A DNA stretch of 64,000 bases from an uncultured Erysipelotrichaceae bacterium (GTDB lineage Bacteria > Bacillota_I > Bacilli_A > RFN20 > CAG-826): assembly GCA_900314865.1 (NCBI GenBank), contig OMWW01000006.1, positions 1 through 64,000 of the forward strand, given 5' to 3'. Under the pieces are notes generated by a model. That model worked only from the letters and a program-made list of their open reading frames with translations, had not been told where the DNA came from and made no database searches. Shown here in pieces: positions 4,002-32,331 of the stretch. The position numbers and the translations under genes are program-made. Position 1 is the stretch's first letter. Every line of letters starts with the position of its first letter.

Positions 4002-4970
4002 ATGCAGAATATGGATATACCTGTATGTTTGTTCACGTGGAAAAGATGGGATACCGTCGAAAGAATTATTTCTAGACTTAAAGAAGCAAATATTAAAAAG
4101 ATTTATGTTAAATCTGATTGTTGGAGAAATGACAACGAAAAAGAACTTGTTTTAAATGTTAGAGCAAATTTGAAGAAAGCTTTTGATTGGGACTGCGATG
4201 TAACATTTATGTTTGCAGACGAGAACCAAGGGGTTTATAAGCAAATCGGTTTAGGCGCAATTGAAATCTTTAAAAAGGAGAAAATGTGTATTTTCATCGA
4301 AGATGATAATTTGCCAGAAGTCAGCTTTTTTAATTATTGCAAAGAGCTTCTCTTAAAATATGAAAAAGACGAGCAAGTTTTTATGATTGCGGGAACCAAT
4401 TATTCTGGAAAATGGATGAAATGCACGGATGATTATATGTTTGTAAAAGCCTTGCTTCCTTGCGGATGGGCATCTTGGTCGTCCAAATTTATCAAATATT
4501 ACGATAAAACTTTAGAATGGTTTGATTCCAAGGATAATTGTAAAAAGTACTTGTCTTTTTATAAATCTAAACCATTAGCAAAGCAACAACTGGGATCAAT
4601 TACGGCTGAAAGAAAATTATTCTTATCTGAAGGAAGATTTAGATCTTGGGATTATCACGCAATTGCGTCTATTATGGTAAACGATTTATTGGTTATATCT
4701 CCTAGAAACAATCTTATAACAAATATTGGGGTTGATGAATTTGGAATACACAACCTTAAAAAGCCCAAGAAAAATGTTATGACTAAAAGATTTTGCGAGG
4801 TCGAATCATATCCGCTCCCTGTCCCTATCGAAAAGCATCCTTTAACTATAAAGATAGATAAAAAGTATCAAAAGTATTGTGACAAAATTATCACATATCC
4901 TTTATGGCTTAGAATTAAAAACAGATTGTCTATAATATATAGGCATTTTGTTCCTAGAAGAGCAAAATGA
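4002..4970 (+). CDS. HlpA-like glycosyltransferase
   Basis: 322 residues. It begins DIPVCLFTWKRWDTV and has ADENQGV, an acidic FIEDDNLP motif (residues about 98-106, DXD-like sugar-nucleotide/metal site) and CGWASWSSKF, all in the same order as in the transferase at 37,545 (NQGCD, VLEDDCVP, WGWGSWKRF). These patterns are typical of the GT-A fold 'hemolytic protein HlpA-like' glycosyltransferases of capsule loci. Acceptor and donor are unknown. Start choice is awkward: AAAAGGAG (3981-3988) has ideal spacing to an ATG at 3995, but that frame closes after about 26 codons. The in-frame ATGs are 4002 and 4011. The gene is convergent with 4971. Confidence 0.75.
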   Translation: MQNMDIPVCLFTWKRWDTVERIISRLKEANIKKIYVKSDCWRNDNEKELVLNVRANLKKAFDWDCDVTFMFADENQGVYKQIGLGAIEIFKKEKMCIFIEDDNLPEVSFFNYCKELLLKYEKDEQVFMIAGTNYSGKWMKCTDDYMFVKALLPCGWASWSSKFIKYYDKTLEWFDSKDNCKKYLSFYKSKPLAKQQLGSITAERKLFLSEGRFRSWDYHAIASIMVNDLLVISPRNNLITNIGVDEFGIHNLKKPKKNVMTKRFCEVESYPLPVPIEKHPLTIKIDKKYQKYCDKIITYPLWLRIKNRLSIIYRHFVPRRAK

Positions 4971-17149: not shown

Positions 17150-18358
17150 ATGAAAATAGCATTAGCAGGAACAGGATATGTTGGATTAAGCAATGCGATA
17201 ATCTTATCTCAACATAATAAAGTATTCGCAGTAGATGTCATCAAAGCGAAAGTTGACTTAATCAACTCTAAAAAGTCTCCAATTGTTGATAAAGAGATTG
17301 AAGAGTATTTAGCAACTAAAGATTTAGACTTAATCGCTACTATTGATGCTGAAAAAGCATATAGAGAAGTAGATTTAGTTATTATTGCTACTCCTACTAA
17401 CTACGATAGTGAAACTAACAAATTTGATACCTCTTCAGTTGAATCAGTTATTGAACAAGTTAAAAGAGTGAATCCTAATGCGTGGATCATTGTTAAATCC
17501 ACTGTTGGGGTTGGCTTTACTCTTACCGCTAGAACAGAACATAAATATGATAAGATTCTCTTCTCTCCAGAATTCTTAAGAGAAGGGAAAGCGTTATACG
17601 ATAACCTTTATCCAAGTAGAATAGTGGTTGGTGTTCCTGAAAAGAAAGAACCATATTTATCTAAAGCTAAAGAATTTGCAGAATTACTTAAACAAGGTGC
17701 GATTAAAGAGAATATTGATGTTCATATCTTAGGGTGTACTGAAGCTGAGGCTGTTAAGTTATTTGCTAATACCTATTTAGCGTTACGTGTTGCCTATTTT
17801 AATGAATTAGATACATTTGCACAAACCAAAGGTTTAGACTCTTTAGATATCATTAAAGGTGTATGTGGTGATCCTCGTATTGGAGATTTCTATAACAACC
17901 CATCTTTTGGTTATGGTGGATATTGTTTACCTAAAGACACGAAAGAACTTAAAGCTAACTTCCAAGATGTACCAGAGAATTTGATATCTGCGATTGTGGA
18001 ATCAAATAGAACGAGAAAAGACTTTATTGCTGATAGGGTACTTAAACTTGCGGGATATAAAAATGATGGTAAAGATAATATCGTTGTTGGTATATATCGT
18101 TTAACCATGAAAAGTGGATCAGATAACTTTAGAGCGTCCTCTATTCAAGGAGTAATGAAACGCTTGCACGCGAAAGGTGTAAAGATTGTTATTTATGAAC
18201 CAACACTTAAAGACGAAGAATTCTTTAACTGCAAAGTTATTAGAGACTTTAATGAGTTTAAAAAATTATCTAAAGTCATTATTGCGAATAGATACGATAG
18301 TTCTTTGGATGATGTTGATGATAAAGTTTATACAAGAGATTTATTGAGGAGAGACTAA
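17150..18358 (+). CDS. ugd: UDP-glucose 6-dehydrogenase
   Basis: 402 residues, the length of the shorter Ugd class. N-terminal NAD fold [16 protein letters not shown] (GxGxxG), the ATPTNYD loop, [14 protein letters not shown], and the catalytic GGYCLPKDT with Cys259. It oxidises UDP-glucose to UDP-glucuronate with two NAD+. SD AGAGG 7 bases from the ATG. The downstream epimerase at 20,063 could turn the product into UDP-galacturonate; an OLD nuclease gene separates the two. Other UDP-sugar 6-dehydrogenases share these motifs, so substrate is a family-level call. Confidence 0.88.
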
Positions 18359-18361
18359 TTT

Positions 18362-20062
18362 GTGAAATTAAAAAACATTTCCATACAAAATTTTCGAAGT
18401 ATAACTTCTACTGAAAAATTAGAGCTTTCTGATTATTGTATTTTGCTTGGCAAAAACAACGAAGGCAAAACAAATGTATTAAAAGCATTAAGCTTTGCGA
18501 TGTACGCTATTAGACAAATAAGAGTAAATGGTAGAAGAGGGGCATATCGCTCCGAGAATTATTATTCTTTTAAAAGAGATTATCCTGTTAGTTTGCTAGA
18601 GGATAAAAACGCTAAGCCAACATCTTTTGTTCTAACTTTTCAACTTAGCGAAGAAGATATTGCTTCCTTTTATGAAACAACTAAACTGCATAATAATGGT
18701 TATATTTGTGTAGAAATTGTTTTTCCTAAGAGTGACAATTCATATGATCAACCACAGATTTTTCTTAAAGAAAAAAGAGGAAGAGGTGGTAGCTCATATA
18801 AGGCTCATATTCAAGACATTCTTGCTTTCCTTCTTAATAATATTTCTTTTCAATATATTCCTGCTGTTAGAACTGCTGATAATTCTTTTGATGTCATAAG
18901 AAGCCTTATAAGAAATGTTCTATATACATTGGATGAAGATGATGAATATAAAAGCGCAATTGATTTGATTGTTTCAAAAAGAAATGAGCTTGTTGATAAA
19001 CTCGGTTCTGTTTTAAAAGACAAAATCAAAACATTTATCCCGTCAGTATCTGATATTGAAATATCATTAGGAAGTTCGCGTGATTTGGATATAGATTTTG
19101 ATGATTCTATTAGGTTTGTTATAGATGATGGTAATAAAACTAGTATTCAGTATAAAGGAGATGGTATTAAAAGTTTGGCGGCACTTGCTCTTCTTTATAG
19201 CACAAAAACAGCAAAACAGTCTCAAATAATTGCTATTGAGGAACCAGAATCTCATCTTCATTATGAGGCAATTCATCAAATTGATGCTGTTTTACGTGAT
19301 CTTTCCAAGACAAACCAAGTAATTGTAACAACGCACAATCCTGTTTTTATTAATAAAGATGATGTTACCAGCAATATAATAATTGACAAAGGCATAGGCA
19401 AAAAGGCAACCTCCATAAGTGAAATTAGAGATTTGATGGGCATTCGTATATCTGATAGTTTATTCTATTCTGATAAGGTTGTGTTAGTAGAAGGCGAGGA
19501 TGATAAAATATCGCTTTCACATATTATGTCGCTATTAGATTTGGAATTAGGTGAGTCAATAAAGAAAAATGAAATTTCTTTTTCTGCTGTTGGCGGGGCA
19601 AGTAAACTCCCATATGTATGTACTTTATTATCTAATTGGTTAGTAAAGTACTGTGCGATTGTAGATTATGATAAAGCAGGAATGGCGTCGCTTAATAATT
19701 GTCTAAACAAAGGGTTTTTAACTCCAAAAAATTCGTATTCTCCAATTGCTTTTAACTCTAAAAAAGAAAATGAGTTTGAAGATTTTTTGAATGTCGAAAT
19801 ATACAAGAATTATATTTTTGATAATTATGGAGTGAGTGTCGAATGTGCTAGATTCAATAAAAAGAATAAAAAATGGTCTGATAGATTAAGTGATGCTTTT
19901 GCTGAAAGCGGAAAATTGTTAGATGAAACAACGAAAGCTATCATTAAAACAAATATTGCGAAAATTATTTCTTTAAAGAACGATATTAATCAAATATTAC
20001 TGCCGAGTTATATTACGATTTTTCAAAATATCGCTTCATCGATAAAAAAGGAGCTTTTGTAA
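18362..20062 (+). CDS. OLD-family ATP-dependent endonuclease
   Basis: 566 residues, GTG start 3 bases after ugd with a GAGGAG SD inside the ugd end. SMC/RecF-like ATPase: NISIQNFRSI, Walker A GKNNEGKTN (residues 30-38), a signature-like QYKGDGIKSLAALALL, Walker B IIAIEEPESHLH and a switch VTTHNPVF. From about residue 370 a TOPRIM domain follows: VVLVEGEDDK (metal-binding Glu), AVGGASKL, CAIVDYDKAG. OLD nucleases cut DNA and several protect against phages, for example with GajB (Gabija) or in retron contexts; no partner helicase is seen here. The stop TAA abuts the ATG of the epimerase, so it is translated inside the sugar-nucleotide operon. Confidence 0.87.
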   Translation: MKLKNISIQNFRSITSTEKLELSDYCILLGKNNEGKTNVLKALSFAMYAIRQIRVNGRRGAYRSENYYSFKRDYPVSLLEDKNAKPTSFVLTFQLSEEDIASFYETTKLHNNGYICVEIVFPKSDNSYDQPQIFLKEKRGRGGSSYKAHIQDILAFLLNNISFQYIPAVRTADNSFDVIRSLIRNVLYTLDEDDEYKSAIDLIVSKRNELVDKLGSVLKDKIKTFIPSVSDIEISLGSSRDLDIDFDDSIRFVIDDGNKTSIQYKGDGIKSLAALALLYSTKTAKQSQIIAIEEPESHLHYEAIHQIDAVLRDLSKTNQVIVTTHNPVFINKDDVTSNIIIDKGIGKKATSISEIRDLMGIRISDSLFYSDKVVLVEGEDDKISLSHIMSLLDLELGESIKKNEISFSAVGGASKLPYVCTLLSNWLVKYCAIVDYDKAGMASLNNCLNKGFLTPKNSYSPIAFNSKKENEFEDFLNVEIYKNYIFDNYGVSVECARFNKKNKKWSDRLSDAFAESGKLLDETTKAIIKTNIAKIISLKNDINQILLPSYITIFQNIASSIKKELL

Positions 20063-21088
20063 ATGAGAATTTTAATATCTGGTGCAGCAGGTTTTATAGG
20101 AGCGTTTCTATGCAAACGTCTTTTAGAGACCACCAAAGATGAAATTATAGGTATTGATAATCTTAATGATTATTATGATGCATCTTTAAAGGAAGAACGT
20201 TTAAAGATGCTTTCATCTTTTAAAAACTTTAAGTTTATTAAAGGCGATATATCTGATAAAGCATTTATTGATAAATTATTTAACGAATATCGTTTTGATA
20301 TAGTAGTGAATTTAGCTGCTCAAGCAGGAGTGAGATATTCTATTGATCATCCTGACGTCTACATCAATTCAAACATTATTGGCTTCTATAACATATTGGA
20401 GGCCTGTAGATATCATATGCCTCAGCATTTAGTGTACGCCTCCAGTTCTTCTGTATATGGTGGAAATACAAAGGTACCATTTTCTACAGATGATAAGGTA
20501 GATAATCCAGTAAGTTTATATGCTGCTACTAAGAAGTCTAATGAATTATTAGCCCATGCCTATAGCAAGCTATATAACATACCTACTACAGGACTTAGAT
20601 TTTTTACTGTATATGGTCCAATGGGCAGACCCGATATGGCATACTTTAGTTTTACTAATAAGTTAATTAAAGGTGAAACAATAGAAATATTTAATTATGG
20701 CAATTGTAAACGTGATTTTACATATGTTGATGATATTGTTGAAGGTGTAATTCGTGTAATGAATAAAGCACCAGAGAAAAAGAATGGTGAAGACGGATTG
20801 CCTATTCCTCCATACAAGATCTACAACATCGGTAATAATAACCCAGAAAATCTGTTAGATTTCGTTAGTATATTATCTGAAGAACTTGTTAGAGCGGGCG
20901 TCTTACAAAAAGATTATGATTTTGAAGCACATAAAAAGTTAGTGCCAATGCAAAAAGGTGATGTTCCTGTGACATACGCTGATACAAGTGATTTAGAGAG
21001 AGATTTTGGATATAAACCTTCAACAAGTTTAAGAGAAGGATTAAGACAATTCTCAGAATGGTATTATAAGTTCTATATTAAGAAGTAG
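20063..21088 (+). CDS. NAD-dependent epimerase, probable UDP-glucuronate 4-epimerase
   Basis: 341 residues, extended SDR. GAAGFIG at residues 7-13, ASSSSVYG, catalytic YAATK (Tyr153, Lys157), RFFTVYGPMGRPDMAYF and a CKRDFTYVDDIVEG motif typical of UDP-glucuronate 4-epimerases (LpsL/CapI type), with the matching genomic neighbour ugd. The product would be UDP-galacturonate for the polysaccharide. UDP-glucose 4-epimerase activity cannot be fully excluded. The ATG follows the nuclease stop directly; SD AAAGGAG lies within the nuclease end. Confidence 0.85.
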   Translation: MRILISGAAGFIGAFLCKRLLETTKDEIIGIDNLNDYYDASLKEERLKMLSSFKNFKFIKGDISDKAFIDKLFNEYRFDIVVNLAAQAGVRYSIDHPDVYINSNIIGFYNILEACRYHMPQHLVYASSSSVYGGNTKVPFSTDDKVDNPVSLYAATKKSNELLAHAYSKLYNIPTTGLRFFTVYGPMGRPDMAYFSFTNKLIKGETIEIFNYGNCKRDFTYVDDIVEGVIRVMNKAPEKKNGEDGLPIPPYKIYNIGNNNPENLLDFVSILSEELVRAGVLQKDYDFEAHKKLVPMQKGDVPVTYADTSDLERDFGYKPSTSLREGLRQFSEWYYKFYIKK

Positions 21089-21108
21089 TGGTTACGCCAC
21101 TTCTTTTT
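21081..21108 (+). terminator. Terminator after the epimerase gene
   Basis: An 11-bp stem with one mismatch (AGAAGTAGTGG with CCACTTCTTTT), short loop, then a T-run. It overlaps the epimerase stop codon and marks the left edge of the island. Confidence 0.7.
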
Positions 21109-21113
21109 AAAAA

Positions 21114-21205
21114 ATGCTTGGCTCGTGTTTAAATTATTGTGGTGGATTGGCCTAGATATTTTACAAACACTCACCGAACAAAAACTGAAAATGTTATCTT
21201 TTATG
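21114..21205 (+). repeat. Direct repeat copy 1: fossil of a GT4 gene segment
   Basis: 92 bases nearly identical to 23738-23829; the first 36 bases differ at one position. Read with small frame corrections it encodes N-A-W-L-V-F ... D-I-L-Q-T-L-T-E-Q ... K-T-E-N-V-I-F-Y, the middle of a GT4 glycosyltransferase. The same segment in copy 2 runs straight into a preserved GT4 C-terminus. Copy 1 has lost one A in the A-run after the TEQ codons and stops matching GT4 after the FY codons. Confidence 0.75.
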
Positions 21206-21294
21206 CCTTTTATATGTTTAAAATAATTAATGAAATTAAAGTTTAATGTAATTATATTTATTTATAGCCTAGAGTAAAGCAAGTCAAAAGTTTT

Positions 21295-22095
21295 ATGAAA
21301 AATTATAAATATGCAATTAATACCTTTTACGATAAATATTTATATAGCACTGATATCAGTGATATTCTCGATTTATATTTAACTGATGAAGCAAATAATG
21401 ATTCAGACCTTAAAAAAGTTCAAACTGTGTTAGCGTGTTTTCATGGTGAATTAAATTATTATTTTGAGTGTCTAAACGCAAGAATTAAAGGAAATCGCTA
21501 TTTTGCGGCGCAACCAAGTAGAGAACTTATCAATTTGGTTAATGATGTTTTTGAGTTTGGGTCTGCTCTAAAGAATAGCCCATATAATTTTAAAACAACT
21601 AAACAATGCTATGCATTATTAAAAACAGCGCAAGGCTTTTTACAAGAAAGTGGCGGAAGCGAGATTCCTCCTGATACTCAGCCATTACTGTTGCCAAAAT
21701 ACTCACCCATATTCGACCTTAATTATATAAAAGAAATGTCTAAAGAGAAAAATCCAACAGTTGAACTGATTAGAATAATTTCAAAAGTATCTACAAATGA
21801 TACCGAATACTCCAAAATGTCAACGGACGAAAAATTGGAAAAACTAAATATGTGCATTGAATATTTACTTAAAACTAACGGCAAATATATCCATCTAGAT
21901 TACAAACTTATTTTTGGTGACTTTGTTAACGAGAAAGATATTGTTTTGTATAGAAACACTACAAATTGCTTTAGGCATGGTTCAGAAGACGCTATAAAAT
22001 CTCGCGCCATTTTAGACAATGACTATAAGATTTTTTTAATTGAATATGGAATGCTAGTCGTTCAGTCCCTACTATCGTATCTAAAAAAAGATTAG
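21295..22095 (+). CDS. Unknown protein, possibly HEPN-like
   Basis: 266 residues, mostly helical, no signal or membrane segment. Near the C-terminus RNTTNCFRHG resembles the R-N...H-G active-site loop of HEPN ribonucleases, though the Arg-His spacing (R-x7-H) is longer than the usual R-x4-6-H. The rest, including an acidic N-terminal region, matches nothing I recognise. The ATG has no SD; start chosen as the first ATG of the frame. It is the first gene of a module enclosed by the two GT4 fossils, which suggests horizontal arrival. A defence role is inference only. Confidence 0.45.
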   Translation: MKNYKYAINTFYDKYLYSTDISDILDLYLTDEANNDSDLKKVQTVLACFHGELNYYFECLNARIKGNRYFAAQPSRELINLVNDVFEFGSALKNSPYNFKTTKQCYALLKTAQGFLQESGGSEIPPDTQPLLLPKYSPIFDLNYIKEMSKEKNPTVELIRIISKVSTNDTEYSKMSTDEKLEKLNMCIEYLLKTNGKYIHLDYKLIFGDFVNEKDIVLYRNTTNCFRHGSEDAIKSRAILDNDYKIFLIEYGMLVVQSLLSYLKKD

Positions 22096-22132
22096 TAAAG
22101 TTGTCAAAAACGGTTATTTGGTAATATTATAT

Positions 22133-22654
22133 TTAAAAATTTAAATATTTTTTAAAATATTTATTAACAGTTTTATCACTTTCAAACAACTCCAATTCTG
22201 CTTTGCTTATTTTACTTTTTAGATATTCTATTAAATATGCAAACGAACTTTTTTTGTTGTTTTTTCTACTCCAATGATATATGTTCCATAAATAACATTT
22301 ACAATCATAATTGGTGACCGATCTATAGAGTTCGTATTCAAATATTTCAAACTCTTTCTTACTTAATAATTTTTTTGCTCTTAAAAAACAAACGTAGTTT
22401 AAATGAGATAGAAAATTATCTATATTTGACTCAATGGGCGAACCATGAAATTTCTCATCATACCACGTGATATCATAATCAAGCAGATATTCAATTTGTG
22501 AGAGTTCTGTATTACCCCTCATTGCTTTTAGCAAATCGCTTACAAATTCTGCTCTTTTAATCTTCTTTGTTTGATTAATTTGAAGATATGTTAAAACAAT
22601 CCCTAATATGGCTATGGCAGCCGCGACAATTCCAATTATGCTTTCTTCTTTCAT
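22133..22654 (-). CDS. Small membrane-anchored protein (DUF4760-like)
   Basis: 173 residues. One N-terminal membrane helix (residues 6-24, IIGIVAAAIAILGIVLTYL), then a helical cytoplasmic domain with SQIEYLLDYDITWYDEKF and FLSHLNYVCFLRAKKLLSKKEFEIFEYE. This layout is shared by many small proteins of defence and mobile islands annotated as DUF4760 or as hypothetical. It is transcribed divergently from the MBL gene with 50 bp between the starts; minus-strand SD GGGAGAA is present. Function unknown. Confidence 0.5.
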   Translation of the reverse strand: MKEESIIGIVAAAIAILGIVLTYLQINQTKKIKRAEFVSDLLKAMRGNTELSQIEYLLDYDITWYDEKFHGSPIESNIDNFLSHLNYVCFLRAKKLLSKKEFEIFEYELYRSVTNYDCKCYLWNIYHWSRKNNKKSSFAYLIEYLKSKISKAELELFESDKTVNKYFKKYLNF

Positions 22655-22704
22655 TTTCTTTTCTCCCTACCACATTACATATTATTATATAAAGGGTAGA
22701 TGTT

Positions 22705-23724
22705 ATGATGTGCAATTTCTTTAATTTTTTTCCAGTAGGACAAGGGTTATTCTATTACGGTTCGTTAAACTTTGGTGAATTTACATTTGCTTATGATTGT
22801 GGAACCATAACACACGAAGTTGATTTGTCTAACCATATCTCTAAAGTGGTTAAATTGAATGGTGGCAATAAATTAGATTTCCTTGCTATTTCACATTTTC
22901 ATTGGGATCATGTTAGTGGTGTAGAGCAATTGGAAAACTTGGTGGGATTTAAACATGTATATTTGCCATATTTATCTAGCAATTCAACGATTAGAAACTT
23001 TGTCATTGGGATTCAACTATTTGAAGACACGCAAGAGTTTGATGAAAGGAGATTATCTACTTATCGCTTTTTGATAAACCTATACAATAGAGATAATAGA
23101 AATTTAGAGCCTGGGTCTGGTTATATACCGCATCCAAATTGGGTATTTAAATATTTTAATAAAGAAATCAAACCAAAATTATGTGAACTATTATTAGAAA
23201 AGATAGAAAAGTTATTAATTAAATATAGTGTAACGAATGTTATAGATTTATTTAAAGTTGGTAAATTTAAAGAGTTAAGGGAAGCATATTTAGAAGTATT
23301 TAAAAATAGTGAACTAAATGATACTTCTTTATTACTACTTCATTATCCTGAAATTAATAATCATTTTTATGAAACAAGGTACTATCCAAATGATTGTGGG
23401 ACAATTATAAATGAAGGAACGCATCATCATTTTTATCCATATACCTTATTAACTGGTGACATTTTATTTGATGACAATCTTGCAAAAGATGTTATTAATA
23501 GCTATCCAACAGGTGTATCTGGAATAGTTCAAGTCCCTCACCACGGCTCTAAATATAACTGGTCATCTCTTATAAATCGATTCCCATCGTTTAATTGTTA
23601 TGTTGTTAACTATGGAACAACAAATAAGTTTGGACATCCAGATTATTTATTAAGAACCCATGTTCCGTCGCATAAGTTTTTTGATAATAATGAATTTAAA
23701 GGATTTTTATATCAAATAATTTAA
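22705..23724 (+). CDS. Metallo-beta-lactamase-fold hydrolase
   Basis: 339 residues. The metal-binding motif SHFHWDH (His64, His66, Asp68, His69), a later TGDILFDDN and PHHGSKYNW give the full MBL metal set as in ComEC-type MBL domains, but no membrane helices are present, so it is a soluble enzyme, likely a phosphodiesterase or nuclease. Two tandem ATGs (22705, 22708) follow AAAGGG. Stand-alone ComEC-like MBL proteins occur in several defence-associated gene pairs. Substrate unknown. Confidence 0.72.
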   Translation: MMCNFFNFFPVGQGLFYYGSLNFGEFTFAYDCGTITHEVDLSNHISKVVKLNGGNKLDFLAISHFHWDHVSGVEQLENLVGFKHVYLPYLSSNSTIRNFVIGIQLFEDTQEFDERRLSTYRFLINLYNRDNRNLEPGSGYIPHPNWVFKYFNKEIKPKLCELLLEKIEKLLIKYSVTNVIDLFKVGKFKELREAYLEVFKNSELNDTSLLLLHYPEINNHFYETRYYPNDCGTIINEGTHHHFYPYTLLTGDILFDDNLAKDVINSYPTGVSGIVQVPHHGSKYNWSSLINRFPSFNCYVVNYGTTNKFGHPDYLLRTHVPSHKFFDNNEFKGFLYQII

Positions 23725-23733
23725 TTTATCGCA

Positions 23734-24191
23734 AACGATGCCTGGCTCGTGTTTAAATTATTGTGGTGGATTGTCTAGATGTTCTACAAACACTCGCCGA
23801 ATAAAAAACTGACAACATTATCTTTTATGGTCAAAGACCATTGGAAGATACGCCTGCGTTATATAAGATTGCAGACGCTATGCTTGTTACATTGGAAGAT
23901 AAACCATACGCGAATATGACTATACCAGGAAAGGTTCAATCATATATGGCGGTTGGTAAACCTATTATTGGTGCGATTAATGGTAGCTGCGCTAATTTTA
24001 TAAAGAATAATGATGTTGGATTTGCTTGTTCATCTGGTGACAGCAAGGGTCTAGCAAACCTCATTAAGAGTTTAGAATTAAGAGAGTTGAAATTGATTGG
24101 CAAACATTCTAAAGATGTTTACTTTAAGAAATATAGTAAGTCTATTTTTATGAGTAGATTGATTTCAACATTGGAGTCAATGAAGAAATAA
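23734..24191 (+). pseudogene. C-terminal remnant of a GT4 glycosyltransferase
   Basis: The intact part (about 23841-24191) reads DTPALYKIADAMLVTLEDK, TIPGKVQSYMAVGKPIIGAI and FACSSGDSKGLANLI, the C-terminal third of a WbuB/WcaI-type GT4 enzyme. Reading upstream in the same frame gives D-V-L-Q-T-L-A-E, a TAA where the other copy has CAA, then K-T-D-N-I-I-F-Y-G-Q-R-P-L-E, so coding sequence extends into the 92-base repeat. Further up, N-D-A-W-L-V-F is recovered in another frame. The catalytic N-terminal half is absent. Dead gene. Confidence 0.8.
23738..23829 (+). repeat. Direct repeat copy 2: fossil of a GT4 gene segment
   Basis: Second copy of the 92-base repeat (copy 1 at 21114). It is continuous with the preserved GT4 C-terminus and carries a TAA for CAA change and a one-base deletion (GTC for GGCC). 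The two copies flank the gene trio at 21295-23724. Confidence 0.75.
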
Positions 24192-24475: not shown

Positions 24476-25267
24476 ATGAAAACATATAAAGTATTTATTA
24501 ACATCGCTTTGATTTCTGCACTTGTGTTTTTGAGTGTTTCCATTATTTTATGGGTTATGCTTGTTATTTATTCTTTTATAAATACAGGTTTTATTGTTGA
24601 CACTAATAACTTTGATATTGTTTATCGCATCGCCCTTATTTCTACAACTATTACTTTTGGTCTTTTTACAATTCAGTTTACTTTAAGATCATTACAAAAC
24701 GCTTTATCAGATAAGCGAAGCAAAGAATTGATTAGGACAAATGATTTACTTAACGATTATATGGAACTTGCTTCTTCTCCAAGATTCCTATTCGTTAAAT
24801 CTGTTTGTCGTGAATTAAGTGATATTTTTAATTTTGGTACATCATTTGATAATTTTGAAAACACTCAAAAAGATTTTGTTAATATACTTCTCAGTTTATT
24901 AGCAAACTCATCTAAGAGTTTTAGCGCTGAGCTTATCAATGCTTCCAAAGCCTATATTTATAGATCTACGATTGATAACGACAGTCCTGAATGGTTTAAG
25001 TCCACGTACACTAACGACAAAATGTATGAATACTTTATGTCTTCTTATGTTGCAATTGAAAATAAATTCGAAGTATTTTCATATCAATATATCAATAAAT
25101 CTGTCGATGATAATTTGTTTGAAGAACAATTATTAAACGATATACGTTTCTTTTATCTATTCCACCTCTTGTTTGTGGGGCTTGGTATGATCACAAATGA
25201 TTGTAAATCGATTTCTTATCAAGCCATAAGGATATTTAAAGAAAAAAATGATAAAATAAAAAAGTAG
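24476..25267 (+). CDS. Two-helix membrane protein of unknown function
   Basis: 263 residues. Two N-terminal membrane helices (residues 7-36 and 49-70) followed by a cytoplasmic helical domain of about 190 residues (SLQNALSDKRSKELIRTNDLLNDY onward). This layout, two helices plus a soluble domain, is common among membrane effectors and DUF proteins of defence islands, but no named family is recognised. It ends 12 bases before a small gene with a strong SD, suggesting a shared transcript. Confidence 0.45.
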   Translation: MKTYKVFINIALISALVFLSVSIILWVMLVIYSFINTGFIVDTNNFDIVYRIALISTTITFGLFTIQFTLRSLQNALSDKRSKELIRTNDLLNDYMELASSPRFLFVKSVCRELSDIFNFGTSFDNFENTQKDFVNILLSLLANSSKSFSAELINASKAYIYRSTIDNDSPEWFKSTYTNDKMYEYFMSSYVAIENKFEVFSYQYINKSVDDNLFEEQLLNDIRFFYLFHLLFVGLGMITNDCKSISYQAIRIFKEKNDKIKK

Positions 25268-25279
25268 GAGGTATTTATT

Positions 25280-25483
25280 ATGAGCACATCATCAAGTTAT
25301 AAGAATTTGGAAAAAGTAATTTCTAATTTGAAAAAGAATAACTACAAAGCAGAGACTAATGCTTTTTACAATGAGGAGCTACGTGTAAATGCTTCTGGAA
25401 ACGTTTATATTGTTGAAAATAACAATGGTGAGGAAAAGGTATCTTCTGATCAAATTCTTAAATTAATAAACGCTAGAAGATAA
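25280..25483 (+). CDS. Small protein of unknown function
   Basis: 67 residues, ideal SD (AGGAGG, 8 bases). Ser-rich N-terminus, then a compact alternating segment NASGNVYIVENNNGEEKVSS and a short C-terminal helix. No family recognised. The strong SD and tight spacing to the upstream membrane protein argue that it is translated, possibly as its partner. Confidence 0.5.
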   Translation: MSTSSSYKNLEKVISNLKKNNYKAETNAFYNEELRVNASGNVYIVENNNGEEKVSSDQILKLINARR

Positions 25484-25496
25484 TGTTTTTAAAAAC

Positions 25497-25583
25497 GGAG
25501 GATTACCCAAGAGGCTGAAGGGGACCGGTTGATAGCGGTTAGGTTCAGAAATGGGCGCAAGGGTTCGAATCCCTTATCCTCCT
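25497..25583 (+). tRNA. tRNA-Ser(UGA)-like gene with abnormal anticodon arm
   Basis: Class II tRNA shape: 7-bp acceptor stem (GGAGGAT with ATCCTCC), CCC/GGG D stem with GGCTGAA as in tRNA-Ser, long variable arm, T arm AAGGG-TTCGAAT-CCCTT. The anticodon arm is one base shorter than the usual 17: ACCG (25524-25527) pairs with CGGT (25536-25539), leaving an 8-base loop GTTGATAG that contains U-UGA. CCA is not encoded; a T-run follows directly. Either a degenerate gene or a functional tRNA with an enlarged loop. The 25584-25842 gap shows only an 8-bp inverted repeat (TGTAACAA/TTGTTACA) and AT-rich promoter-like sequence. Confidence 0.65.
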
Positions 25584-25842
25584 TTTTATTTTCTGATATT
25601 TTAATAATTTCTTATTTAGTGCGCTGTAACAAGTCAAGACTTCATAAAACCTCATTATTGTTTATGCTTTGTTACAAAACTGGCCTAGCCTTCTAATCTA
25701 TGTCATTTTGCATTTGCTTTTCCTACAATCGACTTGCAAATGTGTATCATTTAACATAGCAGGTTTAATAGTCGATAAAAATGTGATAAAAATATAAATA
25801 GTATATATATTAAAGGCTCTTTTGAGATGGAGGAATATATTA

Positions 25843-26271
25843 ATGGAAAAAGAAAAAGCATTAGAAATTTGGGATATTCTGTTTGGCAAAGACACTCTTT
25901 GGGTTCAAGATTGTTTTGGAACATGGATGTATCGTGAAGATTATGGCGATACAGAGAAGAAAAGGGTCCGACCCGGAAATACTAAAGAGTATAAATATGG
26001 CTGGGAAATAGACCACATCAGACCAAAAAGTGATTTTGGGGAGAACGCTGACTCAGATTTATTAAATAATTATGAGATTATGCAATGGAGTAATAACAGA
26101 ACCAAAGGTAATGATTACCCACAGTTTGAGATTAATGATGTGAAATATAAAGTTGTGAAGTGTGATATTTGTGGAAATAAAGGCTTAAAAGGATACGGAA
26201 TAGTTAATTCAGAAGGAAAAAGAATTGATTGGAAAGGCAGAAATAATAAGTATTTTACTAGAAATAAGTAA
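25843..26271 (+). CDS. HNH endonuclease
   Basis: 142 residues from ATG 25843, chosen over TTG 25822 because GGAGG lies about 9 bases upstream. It contains WEIDHIRPKSDFG, LLNNYEIMQWSNNRTKGN, the His-Asn-Asn set of HNH nucleases (Asp-His pair, central Asn, final NxxKGN). The C-terminal part has a single CDICG pair, too little for a zinc finger alone. Small stand-alone HNH enzymes nick or cut DNA. It lies 122 bp before the KAP NTPase gene and may be functionally linked. Confidence 0.75.
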   Translation: MEKEKALEIWDILFGKDTLWVQDCFGTWMYREDYGDTEKKRVRPGNTKEYKYGWEIDHIRPKSDFGENADSDLLNNYEIMQWSNNRTKGNDYPQFEINDVKYKVVKCDICGNKGLKGYGIVNSEGKRIDWKGRNNKYFTRNK

Positions 26272-26393
26272 TCACGAAGTTGTTGTAAAAACAATCTGAT
26301 TAATCATTTTAACAATTATCTTTATTAATAATTGATGATTTGAGAAAACGCATAGTATTTTGGCATATATTTTAGTAATTAGAGAAAAATCCA

Positions 26394-28175
26394 ATGAACA
26401 TACAAGACATAAAAGAAATTATAAAAGAAGTTATCAAAAACAAAACTTATTGCAAATCGGTTTTGATAGATGGACCGTGGGGTTGTGGAAAGACCACTGC
26501 GGTTAAAGATGCAATTAAAGACTTAACAGAAGAGGTTGTTTCTAAGAAGAAATTGGTTTATCAGTCTCTATTTGGAATTAAAGATGTTTCTGAATTAGTG
26601 GCGTGTTTTTCTTATGCAGGCAAAATCATATATTCAGTAACAAAATCGATTGCCAGTCCATTTACTAAACTAATTCCAATTGTTGGAGAACAAATCAAAG
26701 AAGGTATAGATAATTCAACGGCTTTGTTTTCGCCACGTCCTTCAAAAAAGAAGGATACTATCTTCATATTTGATGATTTAGAAAGAGCAGATGAGTCCCT
26801 TTCTTATATAGCGTTACTTGGGTTTTTTAATCAATTGATTATGAGAGGTTGCAGAATAATTTGTATTTCTTCCCTTGACGACTTATCAAGATTAGATTCT
26901 GAAAGAAAAATAGGCTTGGATGCTTTTTTAGAAAAGGCGTTTGACAGAATCTTATATATTAATGAAGATCCTGAAGATATTATTATTAAACTTTTTGAAG
27001 ATAACGAAAAAACAAAAAACTGCATACGACAATGTGTTGATATGTTTGAAAGCAACATTCGCTTAGCTATGAAGGCCCACAGGTTACTATCTGATGTCTA
27101 TGAAAATTCAAAAGAATTTAAATATGACCTAAGTAAAAAATATAACGACTTACAAATTTTGAAATCAACCATATGTTCAATTAAAGCTATTTATTTCTTT
27201 GAAAGAGAGAAAAAAGAAAAGAATGACAATAGTAAAATAACAAATGTATATGAGGATTTGCTATCAATCCATCAATCAAAGCAGCTAGCTTCTAGAGTTT
27301 CTAAGAATATCAATAATGTAATTAAACAAGATGAATTGTATTACGTTCCAGAAGAAATTGCCGACATTAAAATACTTGCTAGATGTTTGTGTATGGCCGA
27401 AGTTCACAAAGATTATAGTGAACTTATTAAAAACTTTTCCTCTAATAATGAAAAAGAAAAAATAAATATCTTAGATACTTCTGTATTCTATTTGGATGAC
27501 GAAGGAAAGAGAAGCGCTTTTTTAAAGTTTAAGAAGGATACATTGGAAGGGACCGCAACCATTAATAGGCAATATATTGATAGATTTGCCGAGTTCTTAA
27601 AATATACTGATTTCGACTTGAAAGATGATGGACTTATTGATTGTGTTATTTCAACAGTTGTTGATAAATACTTAAATGGAGACACAAGTGCATATGATAG
27701 ACTCCAAGATTATACCAACTTCCCTAACGAAACTAACAATCCTAAAATCATGGATGAGGTATTTGAAGAGGTTTCACAAAAGCTGCACAAAACAGAAACA
27801 GAATCTATAGAGTTAAAAATGAAAGATGCATTTGAAAAAGAAGATTATACTTTTTTATTAGATTTGTTGCATGATGTTGAACATTATAAAAAGCCAGAAC
27901 ATATTAGAAAAGAAATAAAACGCATTCTCATTAACAATAATTTTTATTTTCCAGATTTAAGCAAAAATATTGATTATGAATCATGGTCATATTGCCATCA
28001 AGTTGCAAAAATTTCAAAAGGTGATAACGATATGTCACACAAGTTTATTAATTTACTAAAAGAGGAAGTATCAAAACATAAAGATAGTAAATCCGCTATC
28101 GATAGAGCCAAAGCGCTTGTGCAATATAATTTTGATGCCGAAACGTTTAAAGAGTTTGTGGCTTATTGTGATTAA
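26394..28175 (+). CDS. KAP-family P-loop NTPase
   Basis: 593 residues. Walker A GPWGCGKTT (residues 27-35), Walker B IFIFDDLERAD (about 123-133), sensor-like IICISSLDD. The order and the DDLER sequence fit the KAP group of STAND-like NTPases. A segment SYAGKIIYSVTKSIASPFTKLIPIVG (about 76-100), in the usual KAP insertion position, could be weakly membrane-associated. Beyond residue 180 the protein is helical without recognised motif. KAP NTPases are recurrent in phage-defence islands, where they are thought to sense or gate an effector. The SD is poor (GAGAAAAA). Confidence 0.72.
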   Translation: MNIQDIKEIIKEVIKNKTYCKSVLIDGPWGCGKTTAVKDAIKDLTEEVVSKKKLVYQSLFGIKDVSELVACFSYAGKIIYSVTKSIASPFTKLIPIVGEQIKEGIDNSTALFSPRPSKKKDTIFIFDDLERADESLSYIALLGFFNQLIMRGCRIICISSLDDLSRLDSERKIGLDAFLEKAFDRILYINEDPEDIIIKLFEDNEKTKNCIRQCVDMFESNIRLAMKAHRLLSDVYENSKEFKYDLSKKYNDLQILKSTICSIKAIYFFEREKKEKNDNSKITNVYEDLLSIHQSKQLASRVSKNINNVIKQDELYYVPEEIADIKILARCLCMAEVHKDYSELIKNFSSNNEKEKINILDTSVFYLDDEGKRSAFLKFKKDTLEGTATINRQYIDRFAEFLKYTDFDLKDDGLIDCVISTVVDKYLNGDTSAYDRLQDYTNFPNETNNPKIMDEVFEEVSQKLHKTETESIELKMKDAFEKEDYTFLLDLLHDVEHYKKPEHIRKEIKRILINNNFYFPDLSKNIDYESWSYCHQVAKISKGDNDMSHKFINLLKEEVSKHKDSKSAIDRAKALVQYNFDAETFKEFVAYCD

Positions 28176-28562
28176 TTGCGATTATTCGTATTTTTTGCCA
28201 CGTTACCCCGGAACTTTGTTCCCTGGTAACCGCTTTAACATTGATAACTACCTTATCGCATAATTCTTTTAAGATATAAAGACAGATGTTATATTCGTAT
28301 GGGGGTTTCTTATCAAAGATAATCTTATCTTTATTGTGCATAGCGATACCTGTTCCTTATGTAATATAAGTCCATCAAAAAAGCGAATAATTCAAGTTAT
28401 AATTCTGTAAATAGCTGTCTATGTAATAGACATTAGAAAGTTTATAAATTATTATATTAGAAGAAAAAATACCGAATTATATAGTGCCAATTAGTATTAT
28501 TACACATGTGTTAATTATGGTTTTTGGAATAGTGTGTTGGCAAAACACAAGGAGGACTTTGC
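28176..28562. other. Intergenic stretch with one strong hairpin and a doubtful minus-strand ORF
   Basis: 387 bases without a convincing gene. A hairpin at 28202-28230 (GTTACC...GGAAC/GTTCC...GGTAAC, 11 of 13 pairs, TTT loop) has no U-run on either side. A minus-strand frame (28147-28341, 64 codons) includes E-L-C-D-K-V-V-I-N-V and W-Q-K-I-R-I, faintly like the end of a large serine recombinase, but has no SD and overlaps the KAP gene. AT-rich promoter-like sequence precedes the next gene. Confidence 0.4.
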
Positions 28563-29279
28563 ATGGCTTCGATTAAGAAAGTATTTGAAAATATTAAAGA
28601 CGATTTGACTAATTCTGTGCAAGAACGAAAAAACATTAAAATCCTTGAAGCCAAAGGTATAATTGTCACTGATTTTAGAATTTGTAATGGTTCAAAGCAA
28701 GATTTGTATGTATCAGGAAATATCGACACAAGCGAAAAGAAAATATTCTTTGCTTCAAGACGAACTATTGAAATTGGGACAATTTTGGTTGATAAACTTC
28801 TTAATCTTTATCAAATAAAAGCATCAACGTATGATAAAAATAGACTGTTTGATGAAGATGTAGTGACAACGATTTGCGACTATGATTTGTATGTGCCAAA
28901 TAATCCGGCGAGAAATGTGATTAATCAGAGTGCAAATATTTTTCAGGGTTTTTCTGATAATTCCTTTAATAATATAGGCACCCTCGTACTAAATGTTGAG
29001 CAAAAAGCAACAATTGAACAATCTATAAGTATTGCTCAAATGGTTGAAACTGTAGAGGACGAAGCTAAGTATAGGTATAATCCAGTCAAGAATATATTTT
29101 CGTTTTTAGAATTGATAAATAAAATTCTTAAAGGAATTGAAACGATTGATAAATTAGAAGATAAATTGGTGCAAGGTATATTGAAGGAAACCTCATCGTT
29201 TTTAAAGGACATGATTTTAATGTTAATAAAAAATATAAAAAATAAAGCCGATGAGAGCGGTCATTTCAATGATAAATGA
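28563..29279 (+). CDS. Unknown protein upstream of the HEPN gene
   Basis: 238 residues, strong SD (AAGGAGG). Residues 1-115 look alpha/beta (ILEAKGIIVTDFRICNG, YDLYVPNNPARN); the C-terminal 110 are long helices (VEQKATIEQSISIAQMVE; FSFLELINKILKGIETIDKL) that could oligomerise. No transmembrane segment is certain, although FLKDMILMLIKNIK is hydrophobic. The end overlaps the next gene by up to 29 bp, so the two are probably translated together and may form a two-component system. Not a family I recognise. Confidence 0.5.
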   Translation: MASIKKVFENIKDDLTNSVQERKNIKILEAKGIIVTDFRICNGSKQDLYVSGNIDTSEKKIFFASRRTIEIGTILVDKLLNLYQIKASTYDKNRLFDEDVVTTICDYDLYVPNNPARNVINQSANIFQGFSDNSFNNIGTLVLNVEQKATIEQSISIAQMVETVEDEAKYRYNPVKNIFSFLELINKILKGIETIDKLEDKLVQGILKETSSFLKDMILMLIKNIKNKADESGHFNDK

Positions 29280-30639
29280 TTTCAGTGACTACATGAATGG
29301 AACACTTACTTTTCTAAATTCTAACTGTTATTTTTCTTTTGATGGTAAAACACTAGAGATTTATTGTGTTAATGGCGAAGCTAGAATAATTTTATGGGAG
29401 AAACTAGCTGATGGTTCTTGCGTTTCTGCCAAGAAAGAAATACCAAGCAATAGACTTGAGGGCCATTCTTTTGATTTAAATGCAGATGTTGTTTTTTATA
29501 TTGATTCCAAAGGATATGGCTATCATGGTAGCATAGACACTGAAAAAGTTATCCTTAAAATCAATGTCTTAAAGTACATAACAATTAAGAGTAAGATTTG
29601 CGATAAGAACATTCTTGTTTTTAGCTCTAAACAGTTTCATAAATTTTTATATTTATTTCCGCAATATAATCTCACTTTAAGGCACGAAGACAAAATTGCT
29701 GACATCACATACAAATCGGCCGTTTCATCAGACAAAGCTGAATTTACGTTTAAGGGTAAGAAATTTGTGGCCTATCCCTGCCCAACAATTAACACCCAAG
29801 GGAATAAGTTTGATTTTATTCCTGAAATTCATATAGTGTGCGATGAATCGTTGGAGGAAACAGAAATGCTTTCGCTAGTTGAAATTCTATACAAAATCAT
29901 TTCTTTTTTGTTTATGAGAGTCAACATTATTCCAGACAGTATTTATTGTTGTTCCAACAATCTTCAACATAATATTTTTTATCGTAAAGCAACTGACTAT
30001 ATCGAAGAAAAAGAAGATGTGAATTCTATTATAAAATATGGATTTATTAGATGGAACACAGTTTACAAGAACTTCCAAAAGATTATTGATGATTTTATCG
30101 ATGGAAACGCAGATACAAAACACCTTGGCAATTCATCAGAATCAAGAAAATGGATTGACTTTAAAAAAGTATCCACCATATCATCTTTTTTTGAATCTAC
30201 TTATGCTCTTATTTATGGAAACAAACCAAACCATAGAACATCTACTCAAAAGAATATAGATACAATTATTGAAACCTTATTGCCTCTAAAAGATAAAGGG
30301 AACAGAAAAATGGGTGACACTATAGATTATTTAATTAAGCAGTTAGATCATGTGTCGTTAGAAACGAAGATACAAAAAGTGCTGAATGAATACGACGGTT
30401 ATTTACGCGCTATCAAAAAAGAATTCGGGCTTGAGAATAATAGTGTAACCGAAATTGCTGGTATCTGTGCGCAAACAAGAAATTGGACCGATCACGGTGA
30501 TAAAAGGGCGGCAATTAATCCATTTATTGCATCGTGTTTTGCCTATTTGACTTGTGCGACTTATGCTATGTATTTAAAAAGATGGGGAATAGATGATAAG
30601 TTTATTGCCAATGCGCTTTTAGAACTGTATATGGTATAA
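29251..30639 (+). CDS. ApeA-like protein with C-terminal HEPN domain
   Basis: 462 residues (ATG 29251; ATG 29269 is an alternative with less overlap). The N-terminal half is beta-rich, beginning near MNGTLTFLNSNCYFSF. The C-terminal part is helical with RNWTDHGDKR (about residue 410), the R-x4-H catalytic loop of HEPN ribonucleases of the Apea type, followed by two helices ending AMYLKRWG. ApeA-type proteins are abortive-infection nucleases acting on RNA. The N-terminal likeness to the ApeA sensing domain is only suggestive. Overlap with 28563-29279 indicates co-translation. Confidence 0.6.
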   Translation: MRAVISMINDFSDYMNGTLTFLNSNCYFSFDGKTLEIYCVNGEARIILWEKLADGSCVSAKKEIPSNRLEGHSFDLNADVVFYIDSKGYGYHGSIDTEKVILKINVLKYITIKSKICDKNILVFSSKQFHKFLYLFPQYNLTLRHEDKIADITYKSAVSSDKAEFTFKGKKFVAYPCPTINTQGNKFDFIPEIHIVCDESLEETEMLSLVEILYKIISFLFMRVNIIPDSIYCCSNNLQHNIFYRKATDYIEEKEDVNSIIKYGFIRWNTVYKNFQKIIDDFIDGNADTKHLGNSSESRKWIDFKKVSTISSFFESTYALIYGNKPNHRTSTQKNIDTIIETLLPLKDKGNRKMGDTIDYLIKQLDHVSLETKIQKVLNEYDGYLRAIKKEFGLENNSVTEIAGICAQTRNWTDHGDKRAAINPFIASCFAYLTCATYAMYLKRWGIDDKFIANALLELYMV

Positions 30640-30739
30640 ATGTTTATAGATAAATTGCATAGTATAAAGAAAACAAAGATCAATATCTTTCACGAAATTC
30701 GTAATTTTAATTGCGGGTCAGTTCTAAACAACTAAAACA

Positions 30740-30979
30740 ATGATAAATAAAGACAACAGATTCTTTAGAGAATTGCTTGAGATATTGAGCGAACAAACAA
30801 AGATTGAATGTTTAAAGAATTTGGAAGTTTTAAAAGAACTTGCTGAAGGACATAAAGACTCATATATTACCGCTCATCTTTTAGCAGAATACAATCGTAT
30901 AGCCTTTGTTGGGCTGATCACATTATTAAATAAGGAAGCAATCGAGAATAACATTCGAAATATGCTGATGGGATTATAA
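30740..30979 (+). CDS. Small helical protein of unknown function
   Basis: 79 residues, all helical, no cysteines, no recognised family (ELLEILSEQTKIECLKNL, AHLLAEYNRIAFVGLITLL). No SD. Identical 12-base strings GATAAATTGCAT occur on both sides (near 30650 and 31040). It may be a genuine small gene or a remnant. Confidence 0.3.
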   Translation: MINKDNRFFRELLEILSEQTKIECLKNLEVLKELAEGHKDSYITAHLLAEYNRIAFVGLITLLNKEAIENNIRNMLMGL

Positions 30980-31086
30980 AACTTGAGATAAGTGGCCGTT
31001 ATGGCATAAAAATATCAAAATATTGTAAATTATTGTGCGATAAATTGCATTTAACTAGAAAAAAAGATAATATAGAATCAGAAAAT

Positions 31087-32331
31087 ATGAAAAAGAAGCT
31101 TTACAAAAGAGAAAATTATTTATCTAGAATCAGACCTTTTTACCATGAAAATGATTTAATTAAAGTTATTACTGGTGTTCGTAGATCCGGAAAATCTTCC
31201 ATCATGCAAATGATAAGTGAAGAATTAATTGATGGTGGCATTAATCCTAATAACATTATTTATATTGATTTAGATAAAAGAGGATATACAAAGATTAAAA
31301 CTCCGGACGTTCTTGAAGAATTGATTGATAAACTATCCAAAGGAATAAAAGGCACTAAGTATTTATTTATTGATGAGATTCAAAATGTTAAAGATTTTGA
31401 GAGAATGATAAATGCGTTTAGAGTTGAAGAAGATTATTCAATTTTCATAACTGGCAGTAATTCCTATCTTCTCAGCGGAGAATTGATGACGCATCTTACT
31501 GGTCGATATCTAGAATTCGAGGTATTTCCTCTTAATTTCCATGAGTATCTTGATATGAAGAAATTTTACAAGATGACAATTGATGGAAATCTTTCTATTG
31601 AACTAGATCGCTATATTCTTGAAGGTGGTTTTCCAAGAACTTTGTTCTTACCTGATAGTGCTGCCAAAAAAGTTTATATTAGCGAAATAGTGAATGAAAT
31701 CTTTAAAAAAGATATTAAAAAACGAGTAAAGATTAAAAATGTTGAAGTCTTTAATTTGGTTAGGGACTACATTGTTAATAATTATGGTGCAACAACTAGT
31801 ATTAACAATATTGTTAAGGATTTAAATAAAAATGGCATTGCTATTCAGTTCCGTACAGTTGCAAAATATATCCAACATTTAGTGGATGCCAAAATTATCT
31901 ATGAATGTAGCAGATTCGATATGAAGTCTAGAAAGATTTTCCAGAATGAAAAGAAATATTATTTAGCCGATTTATCGTTTGCTCAATTTACAAATCCAAA
32001 TAGCAAGATTAATTATGGTCCAGCATTGGAGAATGTAACGTATCTCTACGCCAAATCTAAAAACTACGATGTTTCAGTTGGTAGAATTGGCACATTAGAA
32101 TGTGACTTCATCTTGAAAGATTTGTTTCTAAATTATTCTTATGTTCAAGTTGCTTATACAATTCTTAGCAGTGAAGATACAGAAAATAGAGAATATGCTC
32201 CTTTGGAGAAGATTCAAGATAATTTCCCAAAATTTGTGCTAACAACAGATTTCTTAATTCAAAAAAGAAAAGGAATCATACATGATAATCTGATGTTGTT
32301 TATGAAAAACGATAAGATTTTTACTAGATAA
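31087..32331 (+). CDS. AAA+ ATPase of the DUF4143 type
   Basis: 414 residues from ATG 31087. Walker A GVRRSGKSS (residues 30-38), Walker B YLFIDEIQN (92-100) with the arginine-containing ITGSNSYLLSGEL sensor and GRYLEFEVFPLNFHEYL, the hallmark order of the large AAA_14/DUF4143 family. The C-terminal half ends with a nuclease-like region (VGRIGTLECDFIL...YVQVAYTI), where the E-x-D...Q-V-A pattern resembles a PD-(D/E)XK core, common for DUF4143. Biological role of the family is unsettled; it is abundant in gut bacteria and mobile regions. The alternative TTG at 31033 lacks support. Confidence 0.8.
   Translation: MKKKLYKRENYLSRIRPFYHENDLIKVITGVRRSGKSSIMQMISEELIDGGINPNNIIYIDLDKRGYTKIKTPDVLEELIDKLSKGIKGTKYLFIDEIQNVKDFERMINAFRVEEDYSIFITGSNSYLLSGELMTHLTGRYLEFEVFPLNFHEYLDMKKFYKMTIDGNLSIELDRYILEGGFPRTLFLPDSAAKKVYISEIVNEIFKKDIKKRVKIKNVEVFNLVRDYIVNNYGATTSINNIVKDLNKNGIAIQFRTVAKYIQHLVDAKIIYECSRFDMKSRKIFQNEKKYYLADLSFAQFTNPNSKINYGPALENVTYLYAKSKNYDVSVGRIGTLECDFILKDLFLNYSYVQVAYTILSSEDTENREYAPLEKIQDNFPKFVLTTDFLIQKRKGIIHDNLMLFMKNDKIFTR

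Follow-up and report, generated by a model that had tools for sequence, protein, structure and literature searches.

A short conserved DNA element joined to capsule-gene 3' fragments in defence-rich capsule loci of rumen Erysipelotrichaceae-type bacteria

We analysed a stretch of 64,000 nucleotides from an uncultured Erysipelotrichaceae bacterium (assembly GCA_900314865.1, contig OMWW01000006.1, positions 1 to 64,000; hereafter the window), in which a pair of direct repeats brackets three genes. Both repeats are mostly copies of a short DNA tag, which we call element E, and not broken sugar-transferase genes; the tag looks like the scar of a gene-exchange junction. E has conserved arms, sits at a characteristic position behind stop codons, forms junctions with the 3' part of capsule genes (X3', where X is the capsule gene), and is found doubled together with X3'. 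We infer from this arrangement that E is the end of a cassette, that E|X3' is a recombination scar and that the cargo is mobile. The most likely reading, to which we give a probability of roughly 45%, is that defence cassettes leave E|X3' behind as an attachment-site-like scar and that direct copies can recombine, so that cargo is dropped or exchanged.

The repeats lie at 21114-21205 and 23738-23829 on the forward strand, are 92 bp each and are 88% identical with two one-base gaps. Their local alignment score was 127, whereas none of 100 random pairs drawn from the window scored above 28, and the 92-bp sequence had significant matches at two places only in the 1.37-Mb genome. A preliminary description of this DNA had correctly reported the direct repeats, the three-gene module between them and the private damage of each copy, namely a TAA codon in copy 2 and a one-base loss in copy 1, both of which can be read from the sequence. 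It had also seen copy 2 continue into a GT4 glycosyltransferase gene, and it does so: a GT4 3' fragment at 23799-24191 (forward strand) corresponds to residues 270-399 of intact homologues of 395-399 amino acids, abuts E directly and is open except for an in-frame TAA near its start. The GT4 gene is a truncated one.

The same description took the whole 92 bp as GT4 coding sequence, which holds for the last 28-30 bp or so. When the DNA of intact GT4 genes from two relatives (L029, 399 aa; L030, 395 aa) was aligned to the window, the alignment began at base 62 of the repeat, with 82% identity. Bases 1 to about 64 showed no significant similarity to the matching segment of the intact genes (p ~0.2 for copy 2 and 0.08-0.11 for copy 1, from shuffled controls), a comparison that rules out GT4 coding across the entire repeat, and these bases, with different middles, are also present outside GT4 in relatives. 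The repeat therefore consists of E followed by about 28 bp of GT4 codons (K-T-x-N-x-I-F-Y; K-T-E-N-V-I-F-Y in copy 1), and the stretch once read as GT4 residues A-W-L-V-F ... L-Q-T-L is a chance resemblance.

E has the consensus AAACGATACCTGGCTCGTGTTT - N33..39 - AAACACTCGCCGAAA, about 72 bp in total, in which the inverted arms GGCTCGTGTTT and AAACACTCGCC surround a variable middle of 33-39 nt. The arms are constant and the middle varies in both length and sequence, with a short-middle form in genus g47. Copy 1 of the window occupies 21108-21179 (forward strand; covariance model R1, 69 bits, E-value 1e-15) and departs from the consensus twice in its arms, with ATGCTTGG and CTCACC. Copy 2, at 23732-23802 (forward strand; R1, 75 bits, E-value 2e-17), has perfect arms and begins 8 bp past the stop of cargo gene 3. 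As a test of independence, a sequence-only model was built from 19 copies from outside the window; it recovered copies 1 and 2 with E-values of 1.8e-9 and 5.4e-14.

Using R1 and a wider model, R2, on 224 genomes of the family, we found 28 strong copies of E in 16 genomes and 7 genera. All carriers are rumen Erysipelotrichaceae-type bacteria of this one family, and no E was found outside it in the order and phylum samples: a strict pattern was present in 8 of 279 genomes of the order (reversed-pattern control, 0), and a 392-genome sample of the phylum contained E in the window's own genus only. Occurrence within that genus is patchy (5 of 19 genomes). Viral contigs gave 19 pattern matches at chance-level scores, the best being 22 bits. 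A literature search returned nothing matching E, and the element is apparently undescribed.

The copies of E are located in capsule loci, with anti-phage defence systems between or beside them. The left neighbour gene is on the same strand as E in 26 of 28 cases, and a same-strand stop codon lies at most 40 bp before E in 14 of 28, compared with 11% of intergenic placements in the same loci (p = 4e-7). Most copies in genus g47 start 1-10 bp past the stop of unrelated, intact genes, and in the window copy 1 follows an intact NAD-dependent epimerase gene (20063-21088, forward strand) whose stop lies 20 bp before it. Where copies have different left neighbours, likeness between them begins only at AAACGAT.

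On the right-hand side, the next bases after about ten copies fall inside a capsule gene in the orientation of E, and the junctions are abrupt. The genes are GT4 (residues 270-399 behind window copy 2, 318-395 in G121, similar in G201), UDP-glucose dehydrogenase or UGDH (residues 337-400, twice in G221 and also in G218 and G220), a sugar transferase (from about residue 119, in G001) and an acyltransferase (C-terminus, on contig C2 of the window's own genome, G000). Nine of these pieces run toward the 3' end of the gene; the exception is at window copy 1, which keeps a 28-bp internal piece. No 5' parts of the abutting capsule genes were found nearby, and the window contains neither an intact GT4 nor a GT4 5' part. 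With the 5' part of X absent, these junctions need more than a simple insertion into X to explain them. An intact UGDH of this type was not found in G218, G220 or G221, two of which are only 71-77% complete. The UGDH C-terminal fragments behind E in these genomes (L149 4990-5187, L150 4263-4460, L091 8728-8924) are open, and most of their differences lie at third codon positions, with dN/dS of 0.06-0.11; they are either refreshed by exchange with intact genes or still translated.

Another genus has the layout of the window, [E-X3']-cargo-[E-X3'], with UGDH as X. There, in G221, a short E followed by the UGDH 3' end, stop codon included, occurs twice (88% identity over 244 bp), on either side of a single 185-aa gene that starts 3 bp past the first UGDH stop. 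In G033, three copies of E, all pointing the same way, set apart a KAP NTPase gene and a four-gene AriAB/AbiL block, and a 175-bp repeat (95% identical) follows two of the three. Given these like layouts in G221 and G033, we regard the window as one of a class and not as a single accident. Contig C2 of the window's own genome carries a second pair of E copies, separated by 2.6 kb; the only gene they enclose, of 737 aa, is a match to the candidate defence family PDC-S46 (3.7e-91). Flanking of cargo elsewhere, to which the preliminary description had tied its proposal, is thus seen at all three of these places.

Related rearrangements were observed in other loci. L079 (18182-18904) has two copies of E 0.94 kb apart around one intact sugar transferase, followed by a 3' fragment of another; possibly one capsule gene was replaced by another. 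In the relative L031, which is without the cargo, GT4 has decayed; no significant E was found at this GT4 fragment, and a weak, decayed candidate (17 bits) lies at 4673-4742. L031 also has a second, different duplication of a GT4 3' end (4610-4670 and 6546-6597) that flanks a two-gene insert of 1.9 kb. UGDH fused to an N-terminal helix-turn-helix domain is found in L032 (3506-4876), L080 (3988-5427) and L083 (8372-9721), and a truncated copy of this helix-turn-helix piece stands ahead of the GT4 tail in L031 (about 6420-6540).

The cargo of the window comprises gene 1 (21295-22095, forward strand, 266 aa), gene 2 (22133-22654, reverse strand, 173 aa, with an N-terminal hydrophobic segment) and gene 3 (22705-23724, forward strand, 339 aa), which has a metallo-beta-lactamase fold (PF00753, 2e-5). 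PADLOC returned no firm match for the three: nothing for gene 1, and at best a weak match of gene 3 to LmuA (6e-7). To judge from its sequence, a C-terminal RNTTNCFRH stretch in gene 1 may resemble an HEPN/Abi-type motif. Plasmids gave only partial matches to the metallo-beta-lactamase cargo protein, below 40% identity. Further defence-like genes, including ones for membrane proteins, lie downstream (24476-32331), among them a PDC-S49-like gene at 26394 and PDC-S01 at 31033 (4.6e-131), which makes the entire stretch a defence island within a capsule locus.

Over all the E-bearing loci, PADLOC matches beside or between copies of E include AriAB (1.6e-67), PDC-S53 (6e-249), DRT UG5-nitrilase (2.2e-135) and Tmn in two genomes (1.1e-58 and 3.4e-62), as well as a PifA-like NTPase, PDC-S46, PDC-S60, PD-T4-7, LmuB, AbiL, PD-Lambda-5 and other reverse transcriptases; they are to be read against a family background of generally defence-rich capsule loci, such as L031 with no clear E. 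Upstream in the window, UGDH (17150-18358, forward strand) is a capsule gene that serves as synteny anchor. Between its stop and the epimerase start, an OLD/GajA-like ATPase-TOPRIM gene (18362-20062, forward strand) fits exactly into 18358-20063 with no E; L031 lacks it and has UGDH and the epimerase adjacent. This gene is a clean, gene-precise insertion.

We propose that E contributes the cassette-end half to an attachment-site-like junction. A defence cassette with E at its end would be joined, near CGCC|GAA, to a point inside a capsule gene, and the right-hand scar of this event would be E|X3'. If cassettes were captured repeatedly at one E|X3', the result would be [E-X3']-cargo-[E-X3'], with GT4 as X and a three-gene cargo in the window, and with UGDH as X in G221. 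The doubling could also come from a circular molecule with cargo-E-X3' that integrated by one crossover, or, as a third route, from homology-facilitated illegitimate recombination (HFIR), in which case copy 1 would be the recipient's allele and copy 2 the donor's. Recombination between direct copies, either RecA-type or by a recombinase acting in trans, could then cause the cargo to be lost or swapped; the preliminary description was right that such exchange of the module could occur.

Some pairs of E share sequence downstream of E and none upstream, and the cargo-free L031 has a decayed GT4 with no significant E beside it; both observations count against the cassette-end proposal. No dedicated recombinase was found near any copy, except a broken serine recombinase about 5 kb from E in G022, and most of the genomes have only two tyrosine recombinases of Xer size and few or no serine recombinases. 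A Pfam scan of the cargo and of those neighbour proteins included in it revealed no transposase in or beside the unit, and we saw neither an excised circle nor an occupied/empty pair of strains. Since there is no recombinase beside E, and neither covariation nor a folding surplus within it, E is most safely called a conserved cassette-boundary element. A bolder idea, which we consider doubtful, is that it is the attachment site of an undescribed trans-acting system which captures and shuffles anti-phage defence cassettes in capsule loci of gut and rumen Bacilli, much as integrons do with resistance cassettes but through another site and enzyme. A short, searchable tag at the ends of defence cassettes would bear on how defence genes gather into islands and swap between strains; it would let islands be parsed into units and would link two phage-facing functions, the receptor capsule and intracellular defence; it would also be directly testable for recombination.

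The loci have points in common with integrative elements that target gene 3' ends (attR, tandem accretion). Cargo lies between direct repeats that terminate in the 3' fragment of a host gene, copies occur in tandem, and a displaced gene 3' fragment stands at one end of the cargo (GT4 in the window; UGDH in G221, G218 and G220). They differ in that no restored X lies beside the cargo in the window or G221, several different X genes are involved and no integrase is present.

Alternatively, RecA and illegitimate recombination after DNA uptake may have built the locus by HFIR, with E as a passive passenger or a regulatory sequence. A donor molecule carrying cargo-E-GT4 would have recombined by homology on the right and by an illegitimate joint on the left, 28 bp inside the recipient's own E-GT4. 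HFIR products resemble the window in that one homologous and one illegitimate joint leave a short duplication flanking foreign DNA, and the process is documented in competent bacteria (PMC3240628). The 88% identity would be explained, because the copies would be donor and recipient alleles, differing by 12% and each with its private damage. The lack of a recombinase near E, the GAA-type microhomology at the GT4 and UGDH junctions and the existence of capsule-gene 3' remnants without E (in L080 and L031) are also consistent with this scenario. However, it accounts neither for the conservation of the arms across 7 genera, nor for the position of E flush after stop codons, nor for the independent junctions with GT4, UGDH, sugar transferase and acyltransferase at one and the same edge of E, and we consider it somewhat unlikely.

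It is less probable that E is a regulatory RNA or DNA element, acting in transcript processing or antitermination or as an operator, which travels with capsule and defence operons and lies at the breakpoints incidentally. The tendency of E to follow a same-strand gene in capsule operons would fit, constant arms around a variable loop would suit recognition by RNA or protein, and JUMPstart/ops and LoaP-type elements are likewise short conserved sequences in polysaccharide loci, in the operon sense. Unlike these, E occurs several times per locus, is patchy between species, is accompanied by no NusG paralogue and does not stand at the operon start. G000, G001, G006, G012 and G013 each encode a single NusG; because these are E-bearing genomes of the genus, a LoaP-type antiterminator was rejected. 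Of the cells in the arms of E, 95.8% are paired, but the arms are almost invariant and show no compensatory change or covariation, and loop-shuffled controls have about the same folding energy, so a conserved hairpin or RNA structure is not supported. Rfam gave no match at gathering score. E is also absent from 14 of the 19 genomes of the genus, showing that the operon does not need it, and its abutment with truncated genes would be left unexplained.

The preliminary description had viewed the repeats as two fossils of one GT4 gene that arose by duplication and decay, which we now hold to be very improbable. The last 28 bp or so of each copy are indeed GT4 codons, and copy 2 runs on into GT4. 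However, about 64 of the 92 bases belong to the conserved element E, with its 28 copies in 16 genomes, which also abuts UGDH, sugar transferase and acyltransferase; each repeat is therefore a copy of E joined to the 3' sequence of GT4. These 64 bases are just what that description had named as the evidence that would count against it, a dispersed element with no relation to GT4.

Integrons and CALINs are similar in general design: small one-way accessory cassettes, here of defence genes, each have a short site near the stop codon with constant arms and a variable middle, in gene-then-site order and uniform orientation, and CALIN arrays also have no integrase nearby. Here, in contrast, cassettes are 1-11 kb and E abuts capsule-gene 3' fragments. 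That E is an integron attC site can be dismissed on defining features, since R'' (RYYYAAC) and R' (GTTRRRY) boxes occur in 0 of 21 copies on either strand and none of the 224 family genomes has an integron integrase (TIGR02249) above the curated cut-off, sub-threshold matches being mostly Xer-sized; a conserved hairpin is not supported either. For the same absence of boxes and integrase we do not file E under CALIN. Firmicutes have almost no integrons (PMC9024848).

One further sequence is shared between the window and L031. Positions 28203-28236 of the window and 4173-4206 of L031 are identical over 34 bp and contain the inverted repeat CCCCGGAACTTTGTTCCCTGG. A small, recurring ORF in antisense, x-KNRFIIDKNQPYEYNI-x, adjoins this repeat and has relatives directly after E in G006, G022 and G159.
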